NCBI RefSeq assembly: GCF_016428595.1
Contig: NZ_JAELVQ010000007.1
Coordinates: 124,001 to 188,000 of the forward strand
Direction of reading: 5' to 3'
Origin: Snuella sedimenti
GTDB lineage: Bacteria; Bacteroidota; Bacteroidia; Flavobacteriales; Flavobacteriaceae
Length of the DNA stretch: 64,000 nucleotides
Shown: positions 897-64,000 of the stretch, piece after piece
Layout: each line of letters begins with the position of its first letter
Numbering within the stretch: the stretch's first letter is position 1
The notes under the pieces: generated by a model
Database searches by the model: none
Seen by the model: only the letters and a program-made list of their open reading frames with translations
Told to the model about the DNA's origin: nothing
Program-made: the position numbers and the translations under genes

Positions 897-1280
897 ATGG
901 GTGAGCCTACACCGAAACTATGAGGTCGGGTGAGTTGGCACATAGCTGTGATGTCCAAAATACCGTAAGGTAAGTGCCAAAGTAACAGATATGGCACGAT
1001 TGGAAGTAACCCGAGCGTAAAAGGAAAAACGATTTAAGAATTAGAAATTACGATTAACAATTAATGAAAGATTCATTTCACGAACTACCAGAACACTGTC
1101 CAGATTCTTTGAAAAAGGTGATTTAAGCACAGTGCTATACTACAAAGATTAATGTCATTTTTGAACTGCCTTATACACAATCCGCTGGGTTTACCCTGAG
1201 GAGCATCTATAGACCCAGCCGAAGGTTGCGGTGGTGTGAGAGATTAACCCAGCTAGTTAGTAGCGAAGCCGTCTACTTGT
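897..1280 (+). mobile_element. ORF-less remnant of a group II intron
   Basis: Two blocks match the complete intron at 61025-62866 (read on the minus strand). The first, about 897-1020, contains CTATGAGGTCGG and AGATATGGCA, the domain I region. The second, about 1150-1280, contains CATTTTTGAACTGCC, GCGGTGGTGTGAGAG and GCCGTCTACT, matching domains V-VI and the intron 3' end. The 5' end and the whole reverse transcriptase ORF are missing. An extra hairpin (CTGGGT...ACCCAG, about 1185-1220) sits where the domain V loop should be. The remnant runs on the plus strand while the surrounding genes are on the minus strand. Confidence 0.75.
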
Positions 1281-3225: not shown

Positions 3226-3442
3226 AAATTATGTATCTACTTGGATACAAAATTAAGAAAAATATTTGAATAAATTCAGTCCAGGTTGGTTTTTCAGTAG
3301 AGTGAGTTTTTATGAACCACAGCGTTCTCGGTTATGATTTCGTTGCGGAAAAATCCGCAGTATTCTTTCCGCTGTATCCGAAAGATAGCAAATTTGCGTT
3401 GAATTCCGATTAGGAATTCAACCGCAATGAATGATAGTCATT

Positions 3443-3537
3443 GTGGGTATCCTTTCGTGTCAATGTGCGATTTTTCTAGAGGGTGCAAGTCCCTTATGGG
3501 TAGGGGTATCGCCTTTAACCATTAGTAAGTCGCAAGG
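3443..3537 (+). mobile_element. 5'-end fragment of a group II intron
   Basis: About 75 bp, from GTGCGATTTTTCTAGAGG (3465) through GTGCAAGTCCCTTATGGG to AGTAAGTCGCAAGG, matches the 5' region of the complete intron at 62760-62866 (minus strand) almost base for base. The matching 5' end begins near 3443 but lacks the GCCCAGCATGGGC hairpin of the full copy. Homology stops abruptly where repeat copy 2 begins. It lies on the plus strand, opposite to the neighbouring genes. Confidence 0.75.
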
Positions 3538-3720
3538 TGGGCGGCATGTCCGATGTCCGTTTTGCCTTTAAAACTATCCTAAAGTGCGTTTTACGTCTTT
3601 TTAAGCCCCATGGTTTTAGGGTGCAAAATATTTATACGGCAAAAGAAGAGGCTGCCTTTTTGGACAGCCTCTATTTGTGTCTTGTTTTTAGAAAATTAAT
3701 GGCTTGTGCAACTATTACTG
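3534..3720. repeat. Long direct repeat, copy 2 (right of toxin-antitoxin pair)
   Basis: Second copy of the repeat at 2434-2620. The shared core is 3553-3644. The central hairpin differs completely in sequence (GAGGCTGCC/GGACAGCCTC, about 3648-3671), but the flanks on both sides of it are conserved. An ORF of 90 codons crosses this copy; it is an artefact of the repeat and has no support as a gene. Confidence 0.8.
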
Positions 3721-55387: not shown

Positions 55388-55460
55388 AAGATTGTGTTCT
55401 CAATTTGACTGACCAAAAATTCCGAATGAAAAATTATATAGAAGTTGATGAAAAAATAAC

Positions 55461-55595
55461 GCAAGGTAACAAAGTATAAAAATAATGCTAAATTAGGTGC
55501 TTAATCAAAGGTTAGTGCACTTTTGGTCACTCTGATTTTCCTGCGGAAAATCCTCGGACACAAAACCGCACTATTCTTATACGTAAACGTTAGGG
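55461..55595 (+). other. attC-like site of cassette A (135 nt)
   Basis: It begins GCAAGGTAAC, the exact reverse complement of the ten bases opening cassette A (GTTACCTTGC, 54857-54866). The arm AAAGTATAAAAATAATGC (55471-55488) pairs with GCACTATTCTTATACG (55568-55583). It ends in the core GTTAGGG (55589-55595), which opens cassette B. A further internal hairpin lies in the loop (TTTTCCTGCGGAAAA). Confidence 0.85.
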
Positions 55596-56353: not shown

Positions 56354-56644
56354 ATGAATATAGGTAATGCCATAAAAGATTTAAGACAGCAAAAAGGTTT
56401 CAAACAAACTGATTTTGCTGTCGAATGTGGTTTGTCACAATCTTACCTTTCTTCAATTGAGAAAGGCAGAAAAGAACCGACCTTAAGTATTCTAAAGCAA
56501 ATCGCTACTGCTCTTTCTATACCAATGCCAGTATTAGTCTTCTTTTCACTTGACCAAGAAGATATAGCCGAATCCAAGCAAGAGGCGTTTAAAATGTTAG
56601 AACCTTCAATCAAAGGTCTAATAAGTGATGTTTTCATTTCATAA
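56354..56644 (+). CDS. Retron-associated XRE helix-turn-helix protein
   Basis: A 96-aa Cro/C1-type DNA-binding protein: IGNAIKDLRQQKGFKQTDFA, then VECGLSQSYLSSIEKGRKEPTLSILKQIATAL (residues about 5-55), followed by a short C-terminal helix region. It may repress the operon, act as antitoxin for the 78-aa protein, or be the retron's own accessory component. Some described retron types do carry an HTH protein. It lies 9 bp before the reverse transcriptase gene. Confidence 0.85.
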   Translation: MNIGNAIKDLRQQKGFKQTDFAVECGLSQSYLSSIEKGRKEPTLSILKQIATALSIPMPVLVFFSLDQEDIAESKQEAFKMLEPSIKGLISDVFIS

Positions 56645-56653
56645 TTTTTTGAA

Positions 56654-57508
56654 ATGAAGAAAAGAGTAAAAGATTTAGCTTATACCTTAAAAATAGATAA
56701 AGGATTACTTTTAAAACTATCTTCCTCTCTTGATTCAAACGAAAGTAGTTTTTACAAAAATTGGGATGAACCTAAAACTGACGAAAAAGGACAGCCAAGG
56801 TTTGAAAATGGCAAACCATTAACAAGACCAATAAACGCCCCCATCAACAAATTGAAATTTGTTCAATCTAGATTATTGAACAATGTCTTGTATAAATTAA
56901 AACTACCTGAATATTTTTTTGGAGGCTTAAAGAAAAAAGATGCCGTTTTAAACGCACGATATCATCAAGGAAACAAGTATTTTTTCCTTACCGATTTAAA
57001 AGATTTTTACCCATCCGTTCATTTTTCTAGTGTCGAAACAGCCTTGAGAAAAGAAGGCTTTTATCCAGATGTAGCAAAGTTAATAACTCGTATTTCTACT
57101 AAAGAAGGAGCTATTCCCCAAGGATGTCCAACTTCTTCATTTTTAGCCTCATTAGTTGTTTTTCACAGTTGTGGTGACCTATTTGAAAAATATAAGAATG
57201 ACGGACTGAAAGTTTCTGTTTATGTAGATGATATAACAATTTCAAGTCCGATTGATTTCAAAGAAAGGACACCTCAAATATTAGAGGAACTGCGAAATCG
57301 TGGTTTGAAAATAAATTTTAAAAAGACTCATTATTGTACCCATAATCCGATAGTTACGGGAATTCAAGTTAAAAATAACGGAATTAGTCCATTGCCTCAC
57401 ACATTTGAAAGGTCAGTTGATTTGACTAGAAGTGTAGCTTCTAGAAATGGACATATTGAACGAATAAAATATGTAAAAAGAATAGCGGACAAAAAAAACG
57501 CACCCTAA
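56654..57508 (+). CDS. Retron reverse transcriptase
   Basis: A 284-aa RT with retron hallmarks: NAxxH as NARYH (100-104), the first catalytic Asp in FLTDLKDFYPSVHF (D114), IPQGCPTSS (154-162), YVDDI (190-194) with the catalytic pair, and VTG (234-236) in the msr-recognition region. It would prime on the msr-msd RNA encoded about 650 bp upstream to make msDNA, which with its partners senses phage. It is at the short end for the family, ending soon after the IKYVKRI segment. Its last codons and stop (TAA, 57506-57508) lie inside the attC site, so the recombination site supplies the C terminus. Confidence 0.9.
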   Translation: MKKRVKDLAYTLKIDKGLLLKLSSSLDSNESSFYKNWDEPKTDEKGQPRFENGKPLTRPINAPINKLKFVQSRLLNNVLYKLKLPEYFFGGLKKKDAVLNARYHQGNKYFFLTDLKDFYPSVHFSSVETALRKEGFYPDVAKLITRISTKEGAIPQGCPTSSFLASLVVFHSCGDLFEKYKNDGLKVSVYVDDITISSPIDFKERTPQILEELRNRGLKINFKKTHYCTHNPIVTGIQVKNNGISPLPHTFERSVDLTRSVASRNGHIERIKYVKRIADKKNAP

Positions 57509-57769: not shown

Positions 57770-58906
57770 TTAGCAACGTTGCTTTTTTGGGGGCATATTT
57801 AGTTTTTCCAACCAATAGTTTGGTGGCCCCCGAGCCGTAAAAGTCGTGACCGTCATTAAGTTCCCTATGTTGCATATTGGACATTTACGGTGTCGTAAAG
57901 GCTCTTTTTTTTTAAAAGTTACCGGGGGCAGCATTCTTTGTATTTCTTTGAGGCCTATCCTTTTGTGGTATGAGCTTAGCATCCCATAATGGCGTATCCG
58001 AACAAACCCCTTGGGCAACACGTGCAATGCAAACCGTCTGATGAACTCGGCATCTGATAAGCGCATAGTTCTACGTTTTCCTCCATGACGGTAATCTTTA
58101 ATAGAAAAGGTAACCTGCCCATGGTCTATTGCCCGTATACGATGATTACTAATGGCTATTTTATGGGTGTAACGCCCTAAGTATTCTATCACCTGCTGCG
58201 GCCCTAAAAAGGGGCGCTTACAGTACACCACCCAATGCTTTTTAAATAAGCTATCGTAAAAACCTGATGCGACCTTAACATTTGGTTCTTTTCGTAATTG
58301 CACCACAAAGCGCGCCCTGAACACCTTGCTCATGGCTTTTACCGGGAACAGGTACTTCCCTTTATGCTTTACGGGTTTCCATCGCCCAGAAGGAGTTAGC
58401 CCGCCCCCGGGAACGATACAATGTAGATGTGGATGCAACGATAAATTTTGACCCCAGGTATGCAGTACAGCAATCATGCCCGGTCGGGCCCCCAGAAATT
58501 TTGGATTGTTCCCAAAGCCATAAATAACCTGCCAGGCGACTTTAAAGAGCATGCTATAAAGTGTTTTTGGCCTGTAAAGGCACAAGCGGTTGAGCTCTTG
58601 TGGCAGGGTAAACACCACATGAAAATAAGGTACCGGTAGCAGTTCGGCCTCACGGGCCCGTACCCATTGTTCTTTCTGGTGCCCCTGGCACTTGGGACAA
58701 TGACGGTTTCGGCAACTGTTGTAGCTCAGGTGCAAGGTTTGGCACTTCGGGTTGTTACAGCGGTCTATATGGCCGCCCATGGCCAGGGTCCTGCACTTTC
58801 GTATGGCATGTAAGGTCCTTAACTGCCAACCGGTATTGCAATATTCTGATAATTGCCCCTGATTCCTCTCTAACACCTGAGCTACCTCGTAGGTAGCGCG
58901 ATGCAC
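57770..58906 (-). CDS. IS91-family transposase (HUH/Y2)
   Basis: The 378-aa transposase has an N-terminal zinc-ribbon region (HIDRCNNPKCQTLHLSYNSC then RNRHCPKCQ, residues about 45-75). The HUH motif HPHLHCIVPGGG is near residue 160. The catalytic Tyr region YLGRYTHKIAISNHR is near residue 245. The C-terminal Zn-like CPICNIGNLMTV follows. It would move by single-strand rolling-circle transfer. It starts 2 bp after the recombinase stop. Confidence 0.93.
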   Translation of the reverse strand: MHRATYEVAQVLERNQGQLSEYCNTGWQLRTLHAIRKCRTLAMGGHIDRCNNPKCQTLHLSYNSCRNRHCPKCQGHQKEQWVRAREAELLPVPYFHVVFTLPQELNRLCLYRPKTLYSMLFKVAWQVIYGFGNNPKFLGARPGMIAVLHTWGQNLSLHPHLHCIVPGGGLTPSGRWKPVKHKGKYLFPVKAMSKVFRARFVVQLRKEPNVKVASGFYDSLFKKHWVVYCKRPFLGPQQVIEYLGRYTHKIAISNHRIRAIDHGQVTFSIKDYRHGGKRRTMRLSDAEFIRRFALHVLPKGFVRIRHYGMLSSYHKRIGLKEIQRMLPPVTFKKKEPLRHRKCPICNIGNLMTVTTFTARGPPNYWLEKLNMPPKKQRC

Positions 58907-58908
58907 AA

Positions 58909-59748
58909 CTACTCCGTATATAGCCGGTCCAGCGGACTAAAGGGCCTTTGCCTACCCAATTGTGCCACATGAAGGTAGACAAGCGTGGTCTGGATATCAG
59001 CGTGCCCCAAAAGTTCTTTGATACTGATAATATCTAATCCCATCTCCAGTAAATGAGTGGCATAACTATGCCGAAAACTGTGTGTGGTAACCTGTTTTTT
59101 GATCCCGCTATGCTTTCGGGCCTCCCGGATGACCCACTGTATCCCCCGGGTGGACAGGGGCACTGCTTTTCCTTCCGCATGATTGCCATTAAAACACCAA
59201 ATGTTAGGATGTTCTGCGGCCATATACTTTTTAAGGCCACGGATCTGCATGGCCGACAATGGAACGTAACGGTCCTTATGGCCTTTTCCCTGGCGGACAT
59301 GGAGCATCTTGCGATCGAAATCCAAATCCTTCAATTGAAGGTTACGGAGTTCAAAACAGCGCAATCCACATCCATATAACATGGCAAGTACCAAACGGTG
59401 CTTTAATAACTTTGGCGTTTTAAGGAGTAACCTGACCTCTCGGCGGCTTAGCACCACAGGCAGTTTGTTTGGGCGTTTAATCGATGGGAGCACCACCCGC
59501 ATCTCACTAAGTCCATAGACGCGATAGAGGTACCTTAGCCCATAAACCGTATGCTTAAAGAAACTGTCTGAGGGGGTCTTGGACCGGGACTTTAAAACGT
59601 GCAGGTAGTCCAATACCTGTTCTTCGTCCAGAACCAGTGGACTACAATTAAAATGTAACGTAATGTGTGCCAGGCAACGGGCATAATTGGTAAGGGTGCT
59701 TTGGCTTTTTCCTGAAAGTTCGACAGAGCGCCTTAACTTTCGGTACAA
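58909..59748 (-). CDS. Tyrosine recombinase of the IS91-family element
   Basis: A 279-aa integrase with an N-terminal SAM-like core-binding domain (residues about 5-95) and a C-terminal catalytic domain. Catalytic residues: Arg in YGCGLRCFELRNLQ, Lys in RQGKGHKDRYVPL, HxxR in HSFRHSYATHLLEMG and the Tyr in LLGHADIQTTLVYLHV. It is the first gene of the element and overlaps nothing. Its role in transposition is not established. It is not an integron integrase: it sits inside the insertion and lacks the extra patch typical of IntI as far as I can see. Confidence 0.9.
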   Translation of the reverse strand: MYRKLRRSVELSGKSQSTLTNYARCLAHITLHFNCSPLVLDEEQVLDYLHVLKSRSKTPSDSFFKHTVYGLRYLYRVYGLSEMRVVLPSIKRPNKLPVVLSRREVRLLLKTPKLLKHRLVLAMLYGCGLRCFELRNLQLKDLDFDRKMLHVRQGKGHKDRYVPLSAMQIRGLKKYMAAEHPNIWCFNGNHAEGKAVPLSTRGIQWVIREARKHSGIKKQVTTHSFRHSYATHLLEMGLDIISIKELLGHADIQTTLVYLHVAQLGRQRPFSPLDRLYTE

Positions 59749-60090
59749 TTCTTTAAACCCAGGAACAGAATTGCACGCCTTTTCAATCAGAGTAAGACTT
59801 TTTTTTCATAATTTTAAGCTTAAGATATTTACGAATACTTAAAGGTAGCCAAAAGTGAGAGTATTTCACCCGAAAGCTACCTTTAGGTTTAGTTCAACAC
59901 GGTATATAGCAAATAGGGCGTTCTGAGGTTCACGAAAGTCTAGTGCTATTAACCAACAACGCCAAAACAAAGTTTTGACGTTTAACAAAAGAAAATTAAA
60001 AGCAAAACACAATGATTTGGCTCAGTGCAAACACGAAAGTTTACCGCTTTCTACTGCCCTACTTGCCATATACTAAACGTTGTACACCAT

Positions 60091-60606
60091 TTGAGAAAAG
60101 CATTTGTAATCATATTAACCTTTATCGGATTTTTGTCATTTGGACAAGAAACGGAACTGAATTCGATTGAAAAAAGCGAGTTGGACAGTATTTATGTCAG
60201 AGCGTTAAATAATAGGTTTGACCTTTTACTTTCGAGCGGTTGGAAATATATTGAACTCAATGAAAATGGACAACGGATTTCCAAACTGAACGTATCTGAC
60301 CGATATAAATTTTTGACCAATGAGGAACTAATTAATTTGTCAATTAAAGAAAAAAAGACAATTCGGGTTTTGCGTCTGACTCACAAAATAATTGGAATTG
60401 ACACAGTTGACGTGAATTTTGGAATTGTAAATGTTACTGGAAAGCGGAAAATACATTTCAACAATGGTCTGAAATTTAAAAAGGCAGATTTTGCATTAGA
60501 TTGTGGCGGAACAAATGGCTATTTTCCTGATATGAGATTTGTGTTTGACCGAAAAAAAAATAATTGGGAATTAATCGATGGAAAGTATAAAATACCAGCT
60601 AAATAA
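60091..60606 (+). CDS. Cassette C secreted hypothetical protein (TTG start)
   Basis: Starting from TTG at 60091 the protein is about 172 aa with a clean signal peptide (RKAFVIILTFIGFLSFGQ, cleavage after FGQ). The ATG further upstream lies inside the attC site and would give a nonsensical N terminus, so it is rejected. The mature part is soluble and unrecognised: NRFDLLLSSGWKYIELNENG, HKIIGIDTVDVNFGIVNV and GGTNGYFPDMRFVFD. The start lies 12 bases past the attC core, leaving no room for a usual Shine-Dalgarno site, common in Bacteroidota. Confidence 0.6.
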   Translation: MRKAFVIILTFIGFLSFGQETELNSIEKSELDSIYVRALNNRFDLLLSSGWKYIELNENGQRISKLNVSDRYKFLTNEELINLSIKEKKTIRVLRLTHKIIGIDTVDVNFGIVNVTGKRKIHFNNGLKFKKADFALDCGGTNGYFPDMRFVFDRKKNNWELIDGKYKIPAK

Positions 60607-60609
60607 TAT

Positions 60610-61011
60610 ATGAGATATGTTATCAAAATTTGGTTATTTACAATAATCGTTTCGCCTCTTTTATTAGCATTAATATTAGGTGCTATTATAAATGATTCGA
60701 GTTTTAAGAGTATATTAAATTCTTACGAAATAATATTTGTAATGATTATTGTCGGCTTTCTTTCGTCAATTCCTGCAATGGTAATATTTTGGTTAATTAA
60801 AAGGTTTTTGAAAAATAAATACTCAACCCTAACCGCGAAGATTATATTATCAATTTATGGCTTTCTATCGGTTTGGATTACATTTTTCATCGTAGATAGC
60901 GGATTTATTACAAGATGGTCTGAACAAACAATTTGGGTTTTGATATATTCGCTAACAATAGTGATAGGAGTTTGGATTTTTAAAAACAATAATAAAGAAA
61001 TAACTGAATAA
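60610..61011 (+). CDS. Cassette C membrane protein, 133 aa
   Basis: Four predicted membrane helices (about residues 5-27, 40-64, 76-98, 108-125), no recognised family. It is 3 bp after the secreted protein gene, so co-translated. Its stop is 5 bp before the attC site. Such small membrane proteins are common cargo in cassette arrays. Confidence 0.65.
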   Translation: MRYVIKIWLFTIIVSPLLLALILGAIINDSSFKSILNSYEIIFVMIIVGFLSSIPAMVIFWLIKRFLKNKYSTLTAKIILSIYGFLSVWITFFIVDSGFITRWSEQTIWVLIYSLTIVIGVWIFKNNNKEITE

Positions 61012-61024
61012 AAAACGGTGTACA

Positions 61025-62866
61025 ATCGAGTAGGCGGCCGTGAACGATAAGTCCACGGTGCACCTCTCACACCACCGTACGTACGGGTCGCGTATACGGC
61101 GGTTCAAAAATGATATTGACCTTTGTAGTATGTTAGCATACTTAGGTAGCCTCTTTTATGAAGTTTTGATTGCGTTATCGTGGTTCGCAAAATAGGACTT
61201 TGAGCTACTGCCCATCCTCCCATATTTGTTCTACTCCATGCATAGGCTTGCCCTTGGGGCACGCCCAACCGAATTAGGTTTTTCCGCTTTCGTTCGAGCT
61301 TCTTCCAGTCATGCCAAATGCAGTACCGTATGCGATTTCGCAACCATTCGTCCAACTTTTTGAGTTTCCCTTGTATGGAAGCTGGTTTAAAATAATTAAC
61401 CCAGCCCCGTATTAGTAGATTTAGTTTACCTATGCGCTCATCAAAGCTCATGGGCAGCGTTTTCTTGGTCAAGTATTTCAGCGAACGCTTAAAACTTTCC
61501 CATTTGTCCTTAGCTACCACGGCTTGATATTTCCCTTTTTCGTTTTTCTTGTAGGTCGGCACAAATCCAAAGCCTAACATTGTAAACGATTGGGGGCGAC
61601 ACACCTTACTTTTGCTGCGGTTGATCGGTAATTTTAATTCGTCCCGTAGGTATTTGTAAACACTATTCCCTACTCGTTTTGCACTTGCCCTGCTCTTAAC
61701 GTAGATGCTAAAATCATCTGCATAACGTACATAACGCAGTCCTCGTTGCTCTAAGACCTTATCCAACTCGTTGAGCAGGATGTTGGACAGCAATGGACTT
61801 AACGGTGAGCCCTGTGGCACACCTTTCTTGCGCTTATGTAGCTTTCCGTTAATTTGGATGGGCGCTCGCAAGAATTGACGGATTAATTTTAGCAAGTAAA
61901 CACACTTTACCTGTTTGTATATCAGTTCCAAAAGGATATAGTGTTCCACATTATCGAAAAACGACTCTAGGTCAATATCGACAATATACTGATAGCCTTG
62001 GTTGATATATTCGAGGGATTGACGCAAGGCTTGGTGTGCATTGCGTTTAGGTCGAAAACCATAACTGTGATTTTGGAAATCTTGCTCGAATATGGGCTGC
62101 AATACTTGTTGTATCGCTTGCTGAAAGACCCTATCGACAACCGTAGGAACCCCCAAAAGGCGCACCTTTCCGTTGGCTTTAGGAATTTCAATACCCAGTA
62201 TTGGCGATGGCTGGTAATTTCCTTCTCGAATACCCTTGAGGTATGCCCGTTGGTGCAACTTTAAGTGTGGCAGTAAATCTTTTACGGATTTACCATCAAC
62301 TCCTGATGCACCCTTATTGGCATATACCCGTCGGTACGCTAGTTGTAGGTTTTCTTTCTCTAATACGCTTTCTATCATACTAACTTGTTAACTGTTCCGC
62401 TTGTACCATGGCTACAAGTGCCCAGACCCCTGTCCGTAACGACACCTTGCTCCGTAGTCCATTAAGAACCATTTTTGTTTGGTCCTTCGTACTATTCCAG
62501 CTTCCTAGTACTACTATGACCGCTGCTGACTTCTCCCATAGACCAACCCGTGGTTTGGGAGACCTCCCCAGGTAAGAGCATCCTCTTTCTTTCGATCCCT
62601 GCCATATCTACTATTTCGGCGCTTATCCCTTAAAGATATTTAGGACTTCACAGTTATGTGCCTGCTCATCCGACCTCATAGCCTCGGTATATGGTTCGTG
62701 TTCCTCAGTACCGAAATTTGCAGTCTCGCTTCCTTCAGTCCCAGCTTCACAACTAGCGACCTTGCGACTTGCTAATGGTTCAAGGCGTTACCCCTGCCCA
62801 TAAGGGACTTGCACCCTCTAGAAAAATTCGTACATTAGCACGAATGGATGCCCATGCTGGGCACAC
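61025..62866 (-). mobile_element. Group IIC-attC intron, apparently complete
   Basis: 1842 bp on the minus strand. The 5' end is GTGTGCCCAGCATGGGC (GUGYG-type); the 3' end is CCTACTCGAT before the exon. Domain V reads roughly GCCGTATACGCGACCCGTACGTACGG, followed by GTGTGAGAGG and domain VI. It encodes one intron RT with maturase. Insertion is in TTGT/TGTAC on the strand opposite to the cassettes, the target known for group IIC-attC introns. No obvious damage, so it may be active. Confidence 0.88.
61104..62378 (-). CDS. ltrA: Group II intron reverse transcriptase/maturase
   Basis: A 424-aa intron-encoded protein. RT blocks: GASGVDGKSVKDL, IEIPKANGKVRLLGVPTVVDRVFQQAI, YGFRPKRNAHQAL, IVDIDLESFFDNVEH, VPQGSPLSPLLSNILLNELD and YVRYADDFSIYVKS (YADD). 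A GIIM maturase domain follows (about 290-385, LIRGWVNYFKPAS ... RNRIRYCIWHDWKKLERK). No HNH endonuclease is present, as in bacterial class C. It splices the intron and carries out retrohoming. The name in other genomes is ltrA. Confidence 0.95.
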   Translation of the reverse strand: MIESVLEKENLQLAYRRVYANKGASGVDGKSVKDLLPHLKLHQRAYLKGIREGNYQPSPILGIEIPKANGKVRLLGVPTVVDRVFQQAIQQVLQPIFEQDFQNHSYGFRPKRNAHQALRQSLEYINQGYQYIVDIDLESFFDNVEHYILLELIYKQVKCVYLLKLIRQFLRAPIQINGKLHKRKKGVPQGSPLSPLLSNILLNELDKVLEQRGLRYVRYADDFSIYVKSRASAKRVGNSVYKYLRDELKLPINRSKSKVCRPQSFTMLGFGFVPTYKKNEKGKYQAVVAKDKWESFKRSLKYLTKKTLPMSFDERIGKLNLLIRGWVNYFKPASIQGKLKKLDEWLRNRIRYCIWHDWKKLERKRKNLIRLGVPQGQAYAWSRTNMGGWAVAQSPILRTTITQSKLHKRGYLSMLTYYKGQYHF

Positions 62867-62993
62867 ACAATGTATAAAAATAATAGCTATTTAATCGCTA
62901 AAACGATAGAAAGTAAATTTAATAAAGGTCTGTGTTTAACTGAAAAGTTAGTGTGTGTAAATCCGCTACTATTCTTATACTAGACCGTTAGCC

Positions 62994-63147
62994 ACAAGCT
63001 GAAAAAAAAATCAGCCGCACATTTTGCACATTTGGTTTTTGCCGACAAAAAAGCCAAACCTCAAAACGAAAAGAGCTGAAATTTTTCCAATGCACAACTT
63101 GAATATTGATAAAATTATTTTAGATTTGTCAAAAAATGACAAGTCTT
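62994..63147 (+). other. 5' region of cassette D
   Basis: About 155 bases between the attC core and the HTH gene. It contains a short palindromic hairpin AGCTGAAAAAAAAATCAGC (62998-63015 approximately) and no ORF. It may carry the promoter or operator for the restriction-modification operon. Confidence 0.4.
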
Positions 63148-63477
63148 ATGAAAACCACATTTGGCGAATACATCCGACTTTTAAGAACCAAAAAGGAACT
63201 AACATTAACTCAACTCGCGGCTAAACTGAATTTGGACTCTGCAAATTTGAGCAAAATAGAAAATGGAATACGAGACTTTGACGAAAAAAGACTTCCGAAA
63301 TTGGCGAAAATATTTGGACTCAATTTAAAAGAGTTACGAAACGAATATATTACAGACCAGCTCGGTAAAAAAATTTACGAAACAAATTGCACAAAGCAAC
63401 TTTTGAAAGTAGCCGAAGAAAAAGCAGAATATCGTAGAAACCTAAATAAAAACCTTCAAACAGAAAAAGCAGTATGA
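63148..63477 (+). CDS. XRE helix-turn-helix protein of cassette D
   Basis: About 109 residues from [18 protein letters not shown]; a Met four codons upstream is also possible. The Cro/C1-type helix-turn-helix is residues about 6-58 ([39 protein letters not shown]). Its last codons overlap the methyltransferase start (ATGA), so the two are translationally coupled. It may be a controller protein of the restriction-modification system, but is larger than typical C proteins. Confidence 0.85.
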
Positions 63478-64000
63478 AAATAGTATCATTTTTTGCAGGA
63501 GCAGGCGGACTTGACCTTGGATTTCAAAAAGCAGGTTTTGATGTGATTTGGGCTAATGAGTATGATAAAGAAATTTGGGAAACCTATGAGAAAAACCACC
63601 CAAGCACAACTTTAGACAGAAGAAGCATTGTAGATGTTCCAGCTGACGAAGTGCCAGAATGTGATGGAATTATCGGAGGTCCACCTTGCCAAAGTTGGAG
63701 TGAAGCGGGTTCATTACGTGGAATTAATGATAAACGTGGGCAGTTATTTTTCGACTTTATTAGAATTTTGGAAGCTAAACAACCTAAATTTTTCCTTGCA
63801 GAAAATGTAAGTGGAATGCTTTTAGACAGGCATAGTGAGGCTTTAAAAAACATTAAAGAACTGTTTAAAAATGCAGGAATTGGGTATGAGCTGTCATTTA
63901 AATTGCTCAATGCATCTGACTTTGATGTCCCTCAAGACAGAAAAAGAGTGTTTTTTGTGGGTATAAGAAAAGATCTTGGATTTAAGTTTCAATTTCCAAA
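63474..64000 (+). CDS. DNA cytosine-5 methyltransferase, HaeIII-like, partial at window edge
   Basis: The first 175 codons are visible. It starts [20 protein letters not shown] (motif I FAGAGG), then the catalytic Cys in [16 protein letters not shown] (motif IV), AENVSGM (motif VI, ENV) and [15 protein letters not shown] (motif VIII QDRKRV). These blocks match M.HaeIII more closely than other C5 enzymes I recall, suggesting GGCC methylation. The target recognition region lies beyond the edge. A restriction enzyme gene probably follows. Confidence 0.9.

Follow-up and report, generated by a model that had tools for sequence, protein, structure and literature searches.

The window, a 64,000-nucleotide stretch of Snuella sedimenti DNA, carries a complete class C group II intron inserted in an attC-type site. 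Very probably this is a mobile intron that works like the known group IIC-attC introns and comes from a Bacteroidota clade whose specialisation on a Bacteroidota attC family was separate from that of the proteobacterial IIC-attC introns. The observations behind this reading are the anatomy of the intron, its open frame, an empty site, attC structure with covariation, target statistics, EBS1/IBS1 covariation and a separate reverse transcriptase (RT) clade. The titles and abstract openings listed by literature searches contained nothing on group II introns in Bacteroidota attC sites.

Intron anatomy and insertion site

The intron and its parts are as follows (window positions; throughout, a slash in a sequence marks a cut or boundary).

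61025..62866, minus strand: complete class C (IIC) group II intron, 1842 nt, GTGTG...CTCGAT (ends, Rfam domains, empty site in genome G157)
62577..62756, minus strand: Rfam group-II-D1D4-3 region (109.8 bits)
62482..62557, minus strand: Rfam group-II-D1D4-1 region (40.9 bits)
61104..62378, minus strand: intron-encoded RT/maturase, 424 aa, open frame, YADD (TIGR04416, RVT_1, GIIM)
61025..61104, minus strand: domains V-VI (Rfam RF00029, Intron_gpII DV/DVI, 40.1 bits, gathering 40)

The ends were read directly, with the intron running from 62866 to 61025: the 5' exon closes ACATTGT, the intron begins GTGTGCCCAGC (GTGTG start) and ends CCTACTCGAT (...CTCGAT), and the 3' exon opens TGTACACC. The GUGYG 5' end, AY 3' end and catalytic domains V-VI of class C were all found (GTGTG...AT; Rfam), the domain V/VI score lying barely above threshold (40.1 versus gathering 40). 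In this lineage the domain V apex is short and departs from the Rfam consensus loop, with CGACC in the window and AGACC in most of the relatives inspected. The encoded protein scored 395 bits against TIGR04416 (cut-off, 300), contained RVT_1 and GIIM only (RT and X, without an endonuclease domain), and had the GsI-IIC RT as its best PDB match (E, 5e-104). A preliminary description of this DNA had called the RT intact-looking, both ends defined to the base, and the intron strand opposite to the cassettes; the open YADD frame, the ends at 62866 and 61025 with exact restoration of the site, and the insertion in the attC bottom strand bear this out.

The surroundings of the insertion comprise the following (R1 is the covariance model described below).

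61017..61024, plus strand: R'' part of the interrupted attC (GGTGTACA/AC, completed by 62867-62868; complement of 60079-60088; uninterrupted in G157)
62867..62993, minus strand: rest of the interrupted attC, with both hairpin arms and the G/TT boundary at 62987/62988 (R1, 81.6 bits over 62857-62993)
60080..61024, plus strand: host cassette body, two open frames, one within 60025-60606 and one at 60610-61011 (frames; G157 homology)
59888..60085, minus strand: preceding attC, same orientation (R1, 52.3 bits)
55460..55595, minus strand: further attC, same orientation (R1, 55.1 bits)

The intron was inserted at TTGT/T, on the bottom strand of the site and opposite in orientation to the cassettes. 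G/TTGTACACC (60079/60080) opens the host cassette; its end, GGTGTACA/AC, is the exact complement of this start and is split by the intron. With the intron removed, the sequence reads GGTGTACAAC and exactly complements the start of the cassette itself (GTTGTACACC, 60079-60088); the remaining part of the attC (62867-62987) has the arms GTATAAAAATAATAGC and GCTACTATTCTTATAC, which are complementary at 14 of 16 positions, and is followed by G/TTAGCC. A natural empty site exists in G157, which belongs to another genus of the same family: there a homologous cassette (95.4% identical over 960 nt) has the site GGTGTACAACAATGG uninterrupted, reading GGTGTACAACAATG. The proposal in the preliminary description that the intron splits the attC box at TTGT/T and that its removal restores the box agrees with both the complement at 60079-60088 and the G157 site, which also supplies the empty site that the description had suggested looking for. 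Because the intron splits the R box, the window cassette should be frozen for attC recombination while the intron stays, and would remain so unless the intron were lost.

Neither open frame of the host cassette had a Pfam or NCBIfam match. Between the two neighbouring attC sites, an HTH gene is followed by a 284-aa retron-like RT (56354-57508; NF038233, 113.9 bits, below the cut-off of 235). A tyrosine recombinase adjoins an IS91-family transposase (57770-59748); this recombinase scored below the IntI cut-off, and no test ties it to attC. The next cassette (63136-64000) opens with an HTH gene and a C5 cytosine methyltransferase, the latter cut by the window edge, and is perhaps a restriction-modification cassette.

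Homologous cassettes of different genera agree from R' to R'' and hardly at all in the attC arms (window 60080-61024 versus L216; L218 10952-11711 versus L230-L232). An intron-mediated swap of attC, through recombination of one intron copy with another, was considered, as the G157 cassette body is 95.4% identical, the attC arms are far less alike, and the break falls at the intron; the arms of the two sites are related but different (alignment score, 86; 300 shuffles, mean 50.4, standard deviation 5.6, none as high). The idea was dropped because an intron-less, VapC-like G157 cassette, with 82-83% homologues in G010, G214 and G175, shows the same stop in similarity at or near R''.

The attC family

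R1 was trained on 23 insertion sites of relatives with the window site held out, and the held-out site matched it at 81.6 bits (E, 4.5e-16). At least one kept two-sided change was present in 18 of the 23 pairs of the model. Further matches in the window were the two same-strand attC sites at 59888-60085 and 55460-55595 and a weak one at 3317-3452 (E, 0.0037). A scan of 46 loci at E ≤ 0.01 gave 60 matches, all on the intron strand and located in 28 of 38 loci with introns of the clade (a subset of the 80 best among 507 relatives; training sites are present in 14 of the 38); R1 was silent in the other 10 and had zero matches in 8 control loci. Outside the clade, R1 had no match even at E ≤ 1 across the 118,538 bases of 23 loci, among them class 1 integron loci and those of four terminator-type sister introns; as judged by this model, the attC family of these introns is thus distinct from class 1 attC.

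At E ≤ 0.001, R1 matched in 85 of 100 Flavobacteriaceae genomes, with 12 matches in the genome of the window itself (G000), under strict filters and with at most 33 candidates scored per genome. A DNA query combining the window attC part and the start of the next cassette matched 189 of 299 genomes at E ≤ 1e-4; among the matches listed, most span the attC part and some only the next-cassette part.

The window site has the R box AAC/GTT, the L box hairpin, the G/TT boundary and the R''/R' complementarity of integron cassettes. By these sequence criteria, it is an attC site of an integron cassette, and recombination at it is predicted. Quite unlikely, in our judgment, is that the sites form a Bacteroidota-specific intergenic inverted repeat other than attC, bounding "cassettes" that are not those of integrons. 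Such a repeat would fit the silence of R1 in the tested class 1 integron loci, where the cassettes point to attC sites, and the absence of an integron integrase above cut-off from the own genome and 17 other genomes with RT relatives; in addition, attC arms are expected to travel with their cassette, and here they fail to do so among homologous cassettes. It fits poorly with an AAC/GTT box showing spacer asymmetry and covariation, with arrays on the same strand, with R''/R' complementarity and homologous cassettes bounded at G/TT in different genera, and with a recombinase at array heads.

Target choice

Insertion sites were read with a strict attC grammar, which required an AAC-type box, a spacer, 11 or more of the 12 outer stem positions and a cut no more than a few bases away, with 38-150 nt allowed. 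From 135 site records in 114 loci (113 with a 5' exon), 85 sites were used, leaving out 5' exons shorter than 150 nt, unrecognised intron starts, repeats of the same exon and proteobacterial plasmid introns. The grammar was passed by 64 of the 85, compared with 44 of 425 shuffles and 53 of 600 random TGT/T positions in the named loci; setting aside L020, a sister-clade site that passes, and a tandem site of L122 that fails leaves 63 of 83. The preliminary description had taken an occurrence mostly after terminators as a sign against its assignment, and the sites of the relatives are instead mainly attC hairpins. The box-to-cut distance was 120-124 nt in 45 of the 64 passing sites and at most 60 nt in 14, and by this measure there are two attC types at insertion sites, long and short; the length uniformity of an earlier 47-site set was a product of the filter and is no evidence. 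The grammar was missed by 21 sites, some of them since the 150-nt stretch cuts a longer attC, and at least one clade site (L158) resembles a terminator. A first hairpin score was rejected as non-discriminating (46 of 60 shuffled sequences lay above the threshold that 83 of 91 sites passed) and was replaced by the grammar and the covariance model.

Pairing next to the cut involves two short elements.

62657..62659, minus strand: proposed EBS1 "ACA", intron positions 208-210 (covariation with the 5' exon, 88 parsed introns)
62867..62869, minus strand: proposed IBS1 (TGT), end of the 5' exon (exon reading, covariation)

The loop GCACAUAAC at intron positions 206-214 contains the ACA complementary to the TGT before the cut. 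The 88 parsed introns (one additional intron was unparsed) comprised 77 TGT-ACA, 6 GGT-ACC, 1 GGT-ACA, 1 TGT-ACC, 2 GAT-ACA and 1 CGT-ACA pairs of 5' exon and EBS1, with ACC at 6 of the 7 GGT sites. The six GGT-ACC introns are from five Hymenobacteraceae and one Nafulsella; because the covariation thus lies mostly in one clade, it amounts to few independent events, and the Fisher p of 1.1e-7 is overstated. Both GAT-ACA introns lie directly behind the 3' end of another intron, and the pairing is broken in L100 and L121. Tandem insertions, in which the 5' exon is the 3' end of another intron (..CTCGAT/GTG), occur in L122 and L154, and L203 (genome G125) has three introns within about 6 kb.

Position -4 was variable (T 46, G 22, C 18, A 9, a count that includes a few reference introns). 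The TTGT/T rule of the preliminary description, which is given as the consensus of the described IIC-attC class in extracts of one report (PMC7923331), stands at the window site and loosens to (N)TGT/T across the relatives.

RT phylogeny and distribution

In trees with the GsI-IIC and 7uim RTs, the window RT fell inside class C, the placement on which the preliminary description had staked its assignment. A 63-row tree put it in a 31-row Bacteroidota clade (support, 100/100) that adjoins the early-branching L180 (100/99) and then a five-member Bacteroidota clade (93/75, weak); four of the five sites of this sister clade are behind U-rich terminators, and the fifth (L020) is behind an attC-like hairpin. 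Four proteobacterial integron-borne introns formed their own clade (100/100), nested with GsI-IIC and other class C introns in a wider group (100/99). Forcing both attC groups into one clade was 95 log units worse (p-AU, 4e-35), and a joint clade with L180 added was 34 log units worse (p-AU, 3.6e-4), the groups for the AU test having been named after seeing a tree. The proteobacterial references were the plasmid introns L078, L079, L080 and L169, taken as possible representatives of the named introns S.ma.I2 and Geobacter Ge.s.I1.

Among 507 relatives in the named genomes, the best 80 were retained; 77 of these are Bacteroidota by record title, and the other three are MAG contigs filed under Saccharospirillaceae, a cyanobacterium and Marinimicrobia. 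At E ≤ 1e-60, RT relatives were present in 15 of the family's 299 genomes, counting the own genome, and in 22 of 395 genomes of the phylum, the latter including other, more distant types. In the tree, G640, a genome of this family, has an RT identical to that of Psychroflexus longus (L097), and the family is accordingly taken to be Flavobacteriaceae.

The group IIC-attC introns of proteobacterial integrons (the S.ma.I2 type) share with the window intron a class C RT-X protein without endonuclease, the attC bottom strand as target, the orientation opposite to the cassettes, and the cut at ..TGT/T. The window intron nevertheless sits in an RT clade separate from L078, L079, L080 and L169, and its target is a Bacteroidota attC family whose model matches no class 1 integron locus tested. 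Position -4 is free (T, G, C or A) in the Bacteroidota clade, unlike in the proteobacterial introns; the EBS1 region is mostly ACAU, versus ACAA in L078-L080; and the intron start is GTG(T/C)G, versus GTACG. That the window intron is a horizontally acquired member of the proteobacterial lineage is hardly credible: the target rule and orientation are identical, and L078-L080 likewise have ACAA in the EBS1 region opposite TTGT, yet RT identity is 37-41% to the four integron-borne plasmid introns and 60-72% to the best 80 of 507 named relatives, and the rejection of a joint clade already contradicts such an origin.

Extracts of the same report (PMC7923331) describe attC targeting by group IIC introns as the property of a specific lineage. 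With separate clades and a joint clade rejected, the window element is, on sequence grounds, an IIC-attC intron by function (target) and not by lineage. The name given in the preliminary description is thus right for target and orientation and unsupported for descent: membership in the group that it described as known mostly from Proteobacteria finds no support.

Terminator-type class C introns (GsI-IIC relatives; L181-L184 in Bacteroidota) resemble the window intron in their class C RT, similar 5' end and insertion behind a hairpin, but follow U-rich terminators, whereas its clade follows attC. It is conceivable, if somewhat unlikely, that the ancestor of class C already targeted attC and that the terminator-type lineages gave this up, the two attC clades then being relics. 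The ACA-type EBS1 and the cut position common to both clades would suit such a history, as would the attC-like hairpin upstream of L020 inside the terminator-type sister clade. Terminator-type introns, however, sit on both sides of the tree, with four of the five sister-clade sites behind a U-rich terminator and L083 and L084, on the GsI-IIC side, behind terminator-like hairpins, so several losses would be required. Convergence of the two attC clades is the favoured reading of the tree.

Other intron copies in the genome

A 449-nt copy of the 3' end of the window intron on contig C20 is 99.8% identical, which suggests recent copying of the intron. Further fragments lie on C14, on C36 and within the window, where two are old, degenerate remnants of the same intron.

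3444..3538, plus strand: 5' remnant of a second intron copy, behind the weak attC match at 3317-3452 (blastn, 89.6%; R1, 25.1 bits, E 0.0037)
908..1184, plus strand: degenerate remnant of a third intron copy, two pieces (blastn, 79% and 83%)

C36 has three ORF-less intron copies (A, B and C; L007 4222-4679, 7293-8053 and 13585-13937) with one common deletion, joined at about intron 205/1650, and with 368-374 positions in agreement over the first 375-380 nt. Each begins at a ..TGT/ junction behind a different attC or attC-like hairpin; R1 matched at the first copy (A) only (L007 4092-4231), and the hairpins at B and C were judged by eye. All three have an insert in domain I and have lost EBS1 (position 208) through the deletion; a REP-like insert in the domain V loop is complete in the first and broken off in the others. 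The upstream flanks of A and B have a short similarity beyond 200 shuffles, and those of A-C and B-C little or none. Because the common deletion removes EBS1, gene conversion between copies already resident is no less likely than mobilisation in trans, and a reading of the C36 copies as autonomous mini-introns was set aside. The REP-like element (about 48 nt) occurs at 16 other places in the genome (e.g., C55:204884-206637 and several places on C1), and the second and third C36 copies continue into further repeated sequence.

Recombinases at attC arrays

No IntI (TIGR02249) scored above cut-off in the 57 contigs of G000, which therefore shows no complete integron; the same held for 17 further genomes containing RT relatives, of which G013 and G448 are outside the 31-row clade. 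A tyrosine recombinase was found at E ≤ 1e-30 in 11 of these 17 genomes (13 listed genes), versus 0 of 14 control genomes. Where at least 3 kb of contig lies downstream, eight of nine recombinases precede attC matches and are oriented as the cassettes (L199, L200, L204-L207, L213 and L214); the ninth, L210, has no attC matches downstream. For the remaining four (L208, L209, L211 and L212), no more than about 1 kb of contig is left downstream; L212 shows a truncated partial match (E 0.017). Two weak opposite-strand R1 matches, in L205 and L207, mirror strong ones. Two examples are as follows.

L199 2520-3641, cassette orientation: N-extended Xer-type recombinase preceding an attC array (attC matches downstream)
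L200 7941-9074, cassette orientation: N-extended Xer-type recombinase preceding an attC array (attC matches downstream)

All eight array-head recombinases (six of them read stop to stop) are Xer-type with an N-terminal extension, and none has the block found in IntI1 ahead of the HxLRHSFAT motif. Two were compared with NCBIfam, and both surpass the cut-off of NF040815, "site-specific tyrosine recombinase/integron integrase". The arrays are like CALIN and chromosomal integron arrays in having same-strand attC sites and cassettes bounded at G/TT, and unlike them in lacking an IntI above cut-off in the 18 genomes tested and in having, at the array heads seen, an N-extended Xer-type recombinase oriented like the cassettes.

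Integrons in Bacteroidota are not new, since two papers list the phylum among integron carriers; extracts on IntegronFinder 2.0 (PMC9024848) mention In0 elements, taken from an earlier study, and, for Bacteroidetes proper, one complete integron.

Proposed mechanism and significance

A ribonucleoprotein of intron RNA and RT/maturase would recognise the folded bottom strand of the attC hairpin, exposed when the DNA is single-stranded. The hairpin would stand in for IBS2, while the pairing of EBS1 (ACA) with TGT and the T at +1 would fix the cut. The intron RNA would then reverse-splice into the single-stranded attC bottom strand, and the RT would copy it into DNA, probably primed at the replication fork because the protein is without an endonuclease domain. 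These steps are modelled on known En-minus IIC introns; splicing, reverse splicing into single-stranded DNA, fork priming and present-day activity are all inferred.

The natural switch from ACA/TGT to ACC/GGT points to a ready-made way of retargeting. A second clade with the same short pairing rule on another attC family would make IIC target choice (hairpin plus 3-nt EBS1) a comparative, testable matter. The intron sites also serve as markers, revealing many Flavobacteriaceae attC arrays with an unusual candidate integrase. Tentatively, and with slightly more doubt than confidence, we propose that Flavobacteriaceae, and probably other Bacteroidota, may possess a near-universal integron-like system missed by standard criteria, with its own attC family (85 of 100 genomes), N-extended Xer-type recombinases without the IntI insert at the array heads in cassette orientation, and class C introns that would have specialised on it independently of the proteobacterial IIC-attC introns.
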